This document shows, piece by piece, positions 19,068 through 48,091 of a DNA stretch of 64,000 nt. This DNA comes from Deltaproteobacteria bacterium (lineage in GTDB: Bacteria > Myxococcota_A > UBA9160 > JAFDDA01), in contig JAFDDA010000014.1 in NCBI GenBank assembly GCA_019311105.1, positions 1-64,000 on the forward strand, read 5' to 3'. A model generated the notes under the pieces. It had not been told where the DNA came from. It saw only the letters and a program-made list of their open reading frames with translations, and searched no databases. Both the position numbers and the translations under genes were made by a program. Every line of letters begins with the position of its first letter. Positions within the stretch are counted from its first letter, which is position 1.

Positions 19068-19252
19068 GGCCGGAGGGGGGTGCCGCGCTCCGTTGCGCTC
19101 GCGGGTCGGACGGAAGGGACATGGCCCTCTTGCTCCCTTCGAACTACGAGATCCAGCGCGGCCTCGGGCCCTCGGCGTGCCCACCGCGTGGCAGCGCGGG
19201 TTGCTACCTCGGGTTCGTCCGCTCCACTCCGGCGCGGCACCCCCCTCCAGCC
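19068..19252 (+). repeat. Palindrome-ended intergenic element, copy A
   Basis: Perfect 17 bp arms 19072-19088 / 19232-19248 (extendable with one mismatch); core aligns with copy B including TGGCCCT at the same 33 nt offset from the left arm. Confidence 0.8.
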
Positions 19253-19331: not shown

Positions 19332-19515
19332 GCCGGCGGGTGGGTGTCGTTGCGCAGCGCAGCCCAAACCCACCGAACCCGAACCAAGCGCCAACCCGCT
19401 CCAACCCCGAGGGCCCTAAGTCGCTAGGGACCTCAATGCCCGAAGCGAGCAATAGGGCCACGCCGTCTCCGGCACACATGCAGGCGAAGCGGAGCAACGA
19501 CACCCACCCGCCGGC
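19332..19515 (-). repeat. Palindrome-ended intergenic element, copy B (opposite orientation to A)
   Basis: Perfect 22 bp inverted arms gccggcgggtgggtgtcgttgc (19332-19353) / gcaacgacacccacccgccggc (19494-19515); core homologous to A on the minus strand. Confidence 0.85.
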
Positions 19516-44957: not shown

Positions 44958-46484
44958 GTGGACCGGCTGCGGCGGCCCGCCTTCGACCCGGACGCAAAGC
45001 CCTTGGCCCAAGACGAAACCCACGCTCCGGCCGCCCCGGAGGCGGCCAACCTGGCCGAATCGAGGGCAGAGCCCCTCGAACTTCCCCCGGGAGCAGGCCG
45101 CTCCCGAGGTGTTGGACGCCCGGGTCAGGGCCACCGTTTCACGGGCGACGCGGCCGGTGGGGGGCTCGCGCGGGCCCTGGGGCTCACTCAAGCGTGGCAG
45201 CTGACGCGCCTGGCATTTTCCCTCGCGTGGCTGCGGCTTCGGGCCGTGCGCCCGTGGGCCGGAGCCTCCGAGCGGGAGAGGCTCCGGCGAAGCCTCCGGG
45301 TCGAGGCCATTGGCCGGGTCGTGGCGACCCTCGGCGACCTGAAAGGCGCCTTCGTGAAGGCGGGCCAGTTCGCGGCGGTGCGGCACGACCTCGTTCCGGC
45401 CGAGGCAGCGCCCCTGTTGACGAGCCTTCGCGACCGGGTTCCGCCGCGGCCGCTCGCGGAGGTCCGGGCCGTCGTCGAGGCGGAGCTCGGCGGGCCCCTC
45501 GAGGCGCACTTCCGCGATTTCGAGCCTGAACCGCTCGGGGCCGCATCGATCGCCCAGGTCCACCGGGCCACCCTGCTCGACGGTACGCCGGTCGCGGTCA
45601 AGGTCCAGTACGTGTGGCTCGCTCGCTCGCTGAGCGCGGATCTCTTCTGGCTGCGGTTCGTGCTGCGCCGTGTTTCCCGGCGCGCCCGCAGCTTCGACGC
45701 CGAGCGCCTGTTCGCCGAATTCGCCCGGGGCATGGCCGAGGAGATCGACTTCGAGCGCGAGGCGGCCAGCGCGCGCGCCATCTCCGAGAACCTCGCCGGC
45801 GAAACCCAGATCGTCGTGCCCGAAGTGTTCGCCGCGTACTCGACGCGCCGCGTCCTGACCATGCGCTTCCACCCGTGCATCCCCGTCAACGACGCCGATC
45901 GGATCGCCAAGCTCGGCGTCGACGCCGCCGCGATCGTCGCCCCGATCGCGCGCGCCTACTCGCGACAGGTCTTCGTCGACGGCCTCTTCCACGCCGACCC
46001 GCATCCGGGAAACCTTTTCGTGATCGACGAGGCGACGGCCGGCGAGCACCCGCGCATCCTGTTCGTGGACTTCGGCCTCTCGCGCCAGCTCGACCCGAAG
46101 CTACGCGACGAAATCCGCACCGCCGTCTACGCCCTCATGAAGCGCGACGCCCCGGCCTTCCTCGACGGCATGGAGCGAATGGGAATGATCGCCGAAGGCC
46201 GCCGCCCCGCCGTCGAGACCGCGGTCGCAACCATGTTCGAGCGCCTCTCGGGCCTCGACGGACCCATGGGTCTCGGGAGCGGCCAGGTGCTTGGCCTGAA
46301 GGACGAAGCCAAGGCGCTGCTCCAAGACACGCCGGGCATCCAACTCCCCAACGACCTGCTCCTCTACGCCCGCACGATGACCTACGTCTTCGGCCTCGCC
46401 CAGGAACTCGACCCCAAAGCAGACGTGATGAAGCTATGCCTCCCCCCGCTCCTCCAGTTCCTGGCGCAGAAGCCGGGGGGCTGA
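44958..46484 (+). CDS. ABC1/UbiB-AarF family atypical kinase
   Basis: LKGAFVKAGQFAAVR (KxGQ), GAASIAQVHRATL, FHADPHPGNLF, LFVDFGLSRQL. Confidence 0.9.
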   Translation: MDRLRRPAFDPDAKPLAQDETHAPAAPEAANLAESRAEPLELPPGAGRSRGVGRPGQGHRFTGDAAGGGLARALGLTQAWQLTRLAFSLAWLRLRAVRPWAGASERERLRRSLRVEAIGRVVATLGDLKGAFVKAGQFAAVRHDLVPAEAAPLLTSLRDRVPPRPLAEVRAVVEAELGGPLEAHFRDFEPEPLGAASIAQVHRATLLDGTPVAVKVQYVWLARSLSADLFWLRFVLRRVSRRARSFDAERLFAEFARGMAEEIDFEREAASARAISENLAGETQIVVPEVFAAYSTRRVLTMRFHPCIPVNDADRIAKLGVDAAAIVAPIARAYSRQVFVDGLFHADPHPGNLFVIDEATAGEHPRILFVDFGLSRQLDPKLRDEIRTAVYALMKRDAPAFLDGMERMGMIAEGRRPAVETAVATMFERLSGLDGPMGLGSGQVLGLKDEAKALLQDTPGIQLPNDLLLYARTMTYVFGLAQELDPKADVMKLCLPPLLQFLAQKPGG

Positions 46485-46501: not shown

Positions 46502-46646
46502 GGAGCGGCGGCCGGGGGTTCCTTCCGCGAATGGCTCGCTTTCCGTGGCGTGTGAGTACGCAGCGTCTTCCGACGCCTCGGGTTCCGAGCCGCGCGAACC
46601 TGTGGCTGCGCTTTATTTCGCTCCAGGAACCCCCGCCCACCGCTCC
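46502..46646 (+). repeat. Palindrome-ended intergenic element, copy C1
   Basis: 22 bp arms 46502-46523 / 46625-46646 (20/22 complementary); blocks TCCGCGAATGGCTCGC (46524-46539) and CGCTTTATTTCGCT (46609-46622). Confidence 0.85.
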
Positions 46647-46707
46647 ACTTCCAACGTGGGAGGCCAGAAGGAAAAACCACCCCCCCCCCCAACGTCACTG
46701 GCGGGTC

Positions 46708-46863
46708 GGGCGTCGGAGAGTTCCCGCAGCGAAATAAAGCGGAGCGGCGCCGCAGCTCGCAGAAGGAAGAACCCTCCACGTCCACTTCGCCGATAGCGCC
46801 AGTGACGGCGAGCCTTGTGCGGCGCATTCGCGAGCCATTCGCGGAGGGAACTCTCCGACGCCC
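46708..46863 (-). repeat. Palindrome-ended intergenic element, copy C2 (inverted relative to C1)
   Basis: Perfect 18 bp arms gggcgtcggagagttccc (46708-46725) / gggaactctccgacgccc (46846-46863); same two internal blocks as C1 in reverse complement (46830-46845, 46728-46741). Confidence 0.87.
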
Positions 46864-46876
46864 GGCCCGCCCCGCC

Positions 46877-48091
46877 CTAGGCCTTCCCGCGACCTCGAAT
46901 CCGAAGCCCTTGGAGACGAATGAACCCAGTCGCATCGGACTGGTCGTAACCGCCCTCTTCGTCGAAGGAGACGGTCGCCTCGTCGTAGAGCGACACCGGG
47001 GAGCGTCGCCCCGTCACGATCACGTTGCCCTTGTAGAGCTTCACGCGCACGTCGCCCGTGACGTTCACCTGGGTGTCGTCGACGAACCGCCGCAGCAACT
47101 CGCCCTCGGGCGCGTACCAGAAACCGTTGTAGATGACCTCGGCGAAGCGCGGCGACATGCGGTCGCGCTCGTGCATGACCTCGCGGTCGAGGGTGATCGA
47201 CTCCATGGCGCGGTGGGCGACGTGGAGCACGGTGCCGCCGGGCGTCTCGTAGACGCCGCGGCTCTTCATGCCGACGAAGCGGTTCTCGACGAGGTCGACG
47301 CGGCCGACGCCGTGGCTCCCCGCCAGGGCGTTCAGGCGGATCAGCAGCTCGGCCGGCGAGAGAGCCTCGCCGTCGATCGAGACCGCGGTGCCCTGCTCGA
47401 AGCCGATCACGATCTCCGCAGGCACCTCGGGTGCGTCCTCGGGCGAGACCGTGAGCTGGAACATCTCCTCCTCCGGGGCGTTCCACGGGTCTTCGAGGAT
47501 CCCGCCTTCGTAGGAGCAGTGCAGAAGGTTGCGGTCGATCGAGTAGGGCTTCTTCAGGGTCGCCGAGATCGGAATGCCGTACTTCTCGGCGTAGGCAATG
47601 CAGTCCGGGCGACTGACGAGGTCCCACTCGCGCCAGGGCGCGATGACCTCCAGCTCGGGCGCGAGCGCCTGGTAGGTGAGCTCGAAGCGGACCTGGTCGT
47701 TGCCCTTGCCCGTCGCACCGTGGGCGACGGCGTCGCAGCCGGTCTCCCGGGCGACCTTCGCGTGGTCCTTGGCGATGAGCGGGCGCGCAAGCGAGGTGCC
47801 GAGCAGGTAGACGCCCTCGTAGATGGCGTTGCCCCGGATCGCCGGCATCACGAAGTCACGCGCGAACTCCTCGCGCAGATCGTTCACGATGCAGTCGACG
47901 GCACCGGTGGCCTTGGCCTTCTCCGGCAACCCCGACAGTTCCTCTTCCTGCCCCACATCGGAGCAATAGGCCACGACGTCGCAGCCGTACTCCTCGATCA
48001 GCCAGCGCAGGATCACCGACGTATCGAGCCCGCCGCTGTAGGCGAGGCACACCTTCGAAATCTTCTGGCCTGAGGAACCGCGTCGCGTCAT
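46877..48091 (-). CDS. argG: Argininosuccinate synthase
   Basis: [51 protein letters not shown]. Confidence 0.97.

Follow-up and report, generated by a model that had tools for sequence, protein, structure and literature searches.

Several classes of short hairpin-forming elements have been described in bacterial genomes. For a significant proportion of E. coli REPs, the closest end of an ORF is 1-20 nt away (PMC12306157); REP stems span 5-13 bp and carry a GTAG or CGTC tag, and inverted dimers are common (PMC3733652). The attC sites of integrons are recognised by their structure, with little conservation of sequence, and it is the bottom strand that is active (PMC2727003). Template switching between inverted repeats has been proposed both to create and to maintain stems, including multi-base changes that appear compensatory (PMC8794818), and template switching in quasipalindromes has also been studied by E. 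coli assays (PMC7202029).

The elements analysed here form a family of dispersed palindromes that is confined to one order of bacteria. With REP, BIME and REPIN sequences they share the dispersed extragenic location near gene 3′ ends, the inverted dimers and the patchy occurrence across species, but their stems of 23-30 bp are locus-specific, untagged and unlinked to Y1 transposases. Like attC sites (PMC2727003), they are hairpins behind genes that combine variable stems with a conserved structure; unlike attC sites, they have no R′ and R″ end boxes, their constant part is internal rather than terminal, and no integrase accompanies them consistently. MITEs and ERIC sequences are likewise short, dispersed and non-coding with inverted repeat ends, whereas the terminal repeats of the present elements vary between copies and no target duplication was seen; a further difference from MITEs is that no related transposon was seen among the Y1 and integron integrase families searched. 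Membership in ERIC is unlikely, a judgement made on the restriction to one order rather than by sequence comparison. The initial annotation had proposed an ERIC- or MITE-like element of a family that it did not recognise, and this still describes the element well: it is a dispersed repeat of the MITE/ERIC/REP type that fits no recognised family. A literature search, with most subscription journals outside its reach, found no description of such a family.

The window, i.e. the whole 64,000-nt stretch of contig JAFDDA010000014.1 that was analysed, contains two copies, C1 and C2, which face each other between two convergent genes. On the plus strand, an open reading frame at 44958-46484, which we take to be UbiB/ABC1-like on the basis of the initial annotation and of its translation judged by eye, has its stop codon 17 nt before the arm of C1. 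On the minus strand lies argG (open reading frame 46877-48091), and the C2 arm starts 5 nt past its stop codon; argG homologues are up to 76% identical, the nearest being found in MAGs labelled Myxococcota, Proteobacteria and Myxococcales, which makes an uncultured myxococcotan the probable source. C1 (plus strand) consists of the left arm (46502-46523), the conserved left block TCCGCGAATGGCTCGC (46524-46539; family core CGAATGGCTC), which is almost invariant in 34 aligned copies, a variable middle of 69 nt with an inner stem and loop (46540-46608), the conserved right block CGCTTTATTTCGCT (46609-46622), the dinucleotide CC, and the right arm (46625-46646), which pairs with the left arm at 20 of 22 positions. 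C2 (minus strand) comprises a right arm of 26 nt (46700-46725), GC between arm and block, the conserved right block CGCTTTATTTCGCT (46728-46741), a variable middle of 88 nt (46742-46829), the conserved left block (46830-46845), and the left arm (46846-46871), with 25 of 26 arm positions paired. Both elements were confirmed where the initial annotation had placed them. The C2 arms, which had been given a length of 18 nt, actually extend over 26 columns with one mismatch.

Each of the two blocks occurs exactly twice in the window, compared with a chance expectation of 0.16-0.29 (two mismatches allowed, shuffled sequence). Scored with a covariance model to which both had contributed, the two copies reach 98.9 and 91.1 bits; other copies in the source genome, some of which are also in the model, score about 84-116 bits. 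The convergent layout of C1 and C2 is one of five such pairs in that genome.

An alignment of 34 copies from several genera yielded the shared plan: an outer arm of about 26 nt, CGAATGGCTC, a variable interior, TGCGCT(T)(T/G)ATTTCG, and the complementary arm. The interior begins and ends with a short stem; CGAA pairs with TTCG, and TGGCTC opposite TGCGCTTTAT forms an asymmetric internal loop. Across the family, the core ranges from 31 nt in the smallest representative (G053) to about 150 nt, and the arms measure 23-30 bp in 103 of 120 distinct copies. Arm sequences vary from locus to locus, while the two blocks are nearly constant. When 636 kb of the source genome (the window and further regions, in part from contigs already known to carry copies) were searched for long strict inverted repeats of any kind, 24 were found, about half of them belonging to the element family. 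Copies at L013, L019, L027 and L218 differ in their right part, with TTCCGCCTTCGGCGGCG or similar instead of TGCGCTTTATTTCG, and apparently represent a subfamily or hybrids. At L274 10461-10519 (contig C25 of G000), arms resembling those of the family (GGGGAGCCCTGCGG-CGGCG) form a perfect hairpin of 29 bp closed by a 1-nt loop, perhaps a copy whose interior was lost. Tandem arrays of whole elements, or of the right block and right arm, occur in G048 (L349, L352, L358 and L365).

At least 36 copies are present in the 4.76-Mb source genome. The core CGAATGGCTCGC has 34 occurrences genome-wide versus 1 for its reversed control, several of these left-block matches being chance occurrences without paired arms. 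The right block CGCTTTATTTCGCT with at most one mismatch shows no enrichment on its own (29 occurrences versus 27 for the reversed control, a weak one because the pattern reads nearly alike backwards), and most of its sites lie at the expected spacing from a left block. Of the 80 genomes of the order, 39 gave matches to the covariance model. The 11 genomes from the rest of the class gave none, and in the phylum sample of 242 genomes copies were confined to order members; all of these counts are lower bounds, as the filters were strict and a limited number of candidates was scored, so that weak relatives could escape. Sister species differ sharply: genomes of genus g20 contain 11, 8, 8 and 0 copies, and those of genus g35 at least 37 and 6, while G000 and G057 have 35 or more each. 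The initial annotation had named beforehand two outcomes that would speak against its proposal, i.e. that no further copies exist in the genome or its relatives, and that the arms of further copies do not covary. Both were looked for and neither occurred, copies being found in the source genome as well as in its relatives.

The genomic position was determined for 106 copies with at least 320 nt of flank, using a simple open-frame and GC3 test in place of annotation. For 76 of these, a gene on the same strand ends within the 120 nt that precede the left arm, compared with 6% of random positions, and the median distances from the stop codon to the left arm are 15, 17, 36 and 50 nt in four groups, most copies lying 3-50 nt past stop codons. 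Many of the remaining copies sit behind a gene on the opposite strand. According to a simple gene caller, 29 copies fall into convergent gaps, 24 into co-directional ones and 3 into divergent ones. The co-directional gaps hold 13 sense and 11 antisense copies; the notion that the element is always sense to its upstream gene was therefore dropped, and the gene-end position alone is claimed. Close pairs are convergent in 27 of 29 cases among the listed matches, often 50-62 nt apart and in many genera. An accessory miaA-like gene of about 310 aa lies between two direct copies in G021 (contig C84, L302 330-1872 / L395). The corresponding site of G036 carries a single copy and lacks the gene, which is found elsewhere in G036 without elements; each genome searched has another miaA-like gene, about 33% identical to the accessory one.

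The outer helix is paired at 93.6% in the alignment, a value inflated by the choice of copies with pairing arms. Of its 30 pairs, 25 vary on both sides, and pairing is almost exclusively Watson-Crick. Covariation scored 0.694, versus 0.171 with shuffled letters and at most 0.19 with slid partners, so that the covariation claimed from C1 and C2 alone is borne out by the family. It had also been taken to suggest selection on a fold, and in this respect the comparison of same-site copies between g20 sister species leads to a different view. Among 300 arm positions, 37 had changed on both arms and 18 were unpaired in one copy (flanks mostly 82-95% identical; the comparisons overlap and thus depend on one another). 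One arm reads GGTGGGGGCACTCGG in G036 and GGTGGAAACCCTCGG in G045, each with a matching partner. Because paired changes outnumber unpaired ones, covariation alone is no proof of selection here, and the ratio of 37 to 18 favours copying of one arm from the other, since paired changes have accumulated too fast for independent compensatory mutation. Quasipalindrome correction by template switching, which makes and keeps perfect stems (PMC8794818; PMC7202029), would achieve such copying in one step; it is known from RNA genes and reporter assays, whereas here it would span a whole dispersed repeat family.

A recent amplification in G048 points the same way and adds a second component. Its arms show 0.20 paired changes per site, compared with 0.17 for the interiors with the conserved blocks included, a rate that a pair of separate mutations for every arm change could scarcely sustain. 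In the closest pairs, arms can diverge far more than interiors, e.g. with 7 of 20 paired changes at an interior difference of 3.8%. Because arm divergence exceeds interior divergence in these pairs, there must be a further contribution from conversion between copies or from turnover of the arms; conversion between dispersed copies is probably at work in G048, where arms and interiors are not always in step.

The mismatches that remain in the arms bear on the possibility that the element is a structured RNA or gene-end element, i.e. that the 3′ end of the mRNA folds, that its loop binds a protein or its hairpin stabilises or terminates the transcript, and that compensatory mutation maintains the stem. 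The position just past stop codons, mostly in sense orientation, the strong predicted RNA folds (z = −5.1 and −7.2) and the conserved internal loop are in line with this proposal. In an RNA helix, G.U would be expected among the stem variants of the transcribed strand, and the counts run against it: among 2400 inner-arm pairs, read on the strand leading from the left to the right block, A.C occurs 50 times versus 10 for G.U (p = 1.6e-7, a value that is too small because related copies are not independent counts), C.T 29 times versus 3 for G.A, and C.C 12 times versus 5 for G.G. The excess of A.C over G.U is found in each of four genome groups. Entry into the 120-copy set required 14 of 20 Watson-Crick pairs, with A.C and G.U treated alike, and G.U had been accepted as a pair in the selection of the first copy set, so the scarcity of G.U is not a selection effect. 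In 21 copies antisense to the nearest gene end, the bias is not flipped (A.C 4, G.U 0, C.T 2, C.C 2), which indicates that the mRNA is not what is selected; the bias appears to be tied to the element's own strand. Further points against a structured RNA are the nearly even numbers of sense and antisense copies in co-directional gaps, the existence of sister species without copies, the occupation of only a few dozen genes, and the Rfam scan of the window at gathering score, which returned tRNA only and no family match at the element. The structured RNA put forward initially thus fares badly, and we consider it improbable.

On the bottom strand, the mismatches that the arms tolerate appear as G.T, G.A and G.G. 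These are the more stable mismatches in DNA, and the pattern fits a folded bottom strand. Polarised changes number 47 at top-strand G versus 8 at C, and A/T changes 10 versus 3. The bias could alternatively be in part mutational, arising at top-strand G, a view weakly opposed by the few A/T changes, which alone distinguish between the two models. Taken as it stands, the bias speaks against an mRNA fold and suggests upkeep at the DNA level or use of the bottom strand.

With modest confidence, we favour a new REP-like family outside the REP definition, with copying between arms, recognition of the folded bottom strand and spread by an enzyme. The best reading is that the element has been mobile in the past and that its fold probably forms in single-stranded DNA. 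The arms would be kept complementary mainly by arm-to-arm copying of DNA, i.e. by quasipalindrome template switching, such that a change in one arm would soon be copied into the other. The conserved internal loop would be the putative recognition site of a candidate protein with affinity for the bottom strand when it is folded as single-stranded DNA; recognition there would account for the constancy of the blocks beside drifting stems and for the tolerance of G.T, G.A and G.G on that strand. Copies would be spread by a candidate enzyme and would persist behind stop codons, where they may do the least harm or may aid in ending or stabilising transcripts. A bolder version, which is conceivable but doubtful, would place the family in a new class of mobile or recombination elements that act as single strands, with an enzyme that reads the conserved loop of the folded bottom strand, inserts copies behind genes and, at every cycle, rebuilds one arm on the model of its partner. 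In such a class, stem sequence would be free and pairing enforced; constant inside and free outside, it would reverse the logic of attC and REP.

Locus-specific arms could also be produced at insertion, if about 24 nt of neighbouring DNA were copied as an inverted repeat and the arms were thus local sequence. The defined arm length and locus-specific arm sequence would be accounted for, as would the short-interior copies of the source genome, which have related interiors and unrelated arms, and some of the closest G048 copies, in which interiors are nearly equal and arms different. The main reason for keeping this explanation is that two sites in G046 retain a left-arm-like stretch and have no right arm; these stretches could be deletion remnants or the pre-insertion state. 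An empty-site comparison in genus g20 was ambiguous, with no clean empty site seen and the L208 site in G046 rearranged. However, the outer and inner ends of the G048 arms are common to unrelated loci and only the middle varies, C2-type arms are common to several loci and show paired changes, and same-site arms keep changing in pairs after insertion. We therefore regard an origin of the arms by inverted target duplication as unlikely, to much the same degree as the structured RNA.

An attC-like site, at which an integron-type tyrosine recombinase acts on the folded bottom strand and moves gene and element together as a cassette, would explain the bottom-strand bias, the position behind genes and the variable stems with conserved structure that are also typical of attC (PMC2727003). 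The miaA-like gene between direct copies in G021 is one suggestive case, which homologous recombination could, however, explain as well. Genomes of the order often encode integron integrases, 37 of 80 having such genes at E <= 1e-40. They were found in 23 of 39 element-bearing versus 14 of 41 other genomes (p = 0.04, uncorrected for phylogeny), but the association is inconsistent: G000, G057, G036, G005 and G012 carry copies and have no integrase match, the first two in spite of 35 or more copies each, and several integrase-bearing genomes are without copies. Integron integrases thus track the element only weakly. In addition, the attC end boxes RYYYAAC / GTTRRRY were found in only 1 of 120 copies, and copies are scattered rather than arrayed, which together make an attC-like site very improbable. 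Least probable of all is insertion into the loops of existing terminator hairpins, the old stems of which would now be the arms: it would agree with the position behind stop codons and with the single 29-bp hairpin with a 1-nt loop and family-like arms, but short-loop hairpins are few in the 636 kb scanned and mostly of 15-16 bp, versus the uniform 23-30 bp of the arms.

For the REP-like family that we favour, the searched enzyme families (Y1 and integron integrase) yielded no partner. Y1_Tnp was about as frequent among element-bearing genomes (16 of 39) as among those free of the element (14 of 41; p = 0.64), and none was detected in G048, G036, G045 and G053, a phyletic pattern on which a RAYT was rejected as partner. 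The initial annotation had suggested a search for a RAYT or transposase elsewhere in the genome; the single Y1 transposase gene of the source genome has a different REP next to it, and the occurrence of the element does not follow that of Y1 genes. No REP tag (GTAG or CGTC) is found at a fixed position past the arm ends in the 120 copies, and the GTAG at some left flanks is, in several loci, the stop codon of the upstream gene. Among the same 120 copies, no flush direct repeat of more than 3 nt indicative of a target duplication was found, although the boundary of the arm is blurred, so that a short or offset repeat could escape notice.

With hundreds of copies in 39 species, the family provides a natural replicated data set in which near-perfect stem covariation occurs without the signature of RNA selection. 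It can serve to test a general caution, namely that covariation, the usual proof of RNA structure, can be generated in the DNA itself. Should the strand bias stem from the use of folded single-stranded DNA, this order would contain a hairpin-recognising system that has so far gone unrecorded.

Two other sets of palindromes were observed. At L196 (1003-1914), a RAYT-like Y1 transposase gene is flanked by a separate repeat (GACGAAGGGGACGGTTCT...GATGACGAAACC), scattered copies of which (L253, L247, L270 and L258) are perfect inverted doubles of 17-40 bp. The window itself has two more long palindromic elements, at 19072-19248 and 19332-19515, with arms of 17 and 22 bp and loops of 143 and 140 nt. 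They do not match the covariance model, and their interior differs from that of C1 and C2 (CTCCGCTTCGCC ... GGGCTGCGCT, as read on the second element's minus strand). The two may likewise form a convergent pair, and are perhaps members of a second family that shares the same architecture.
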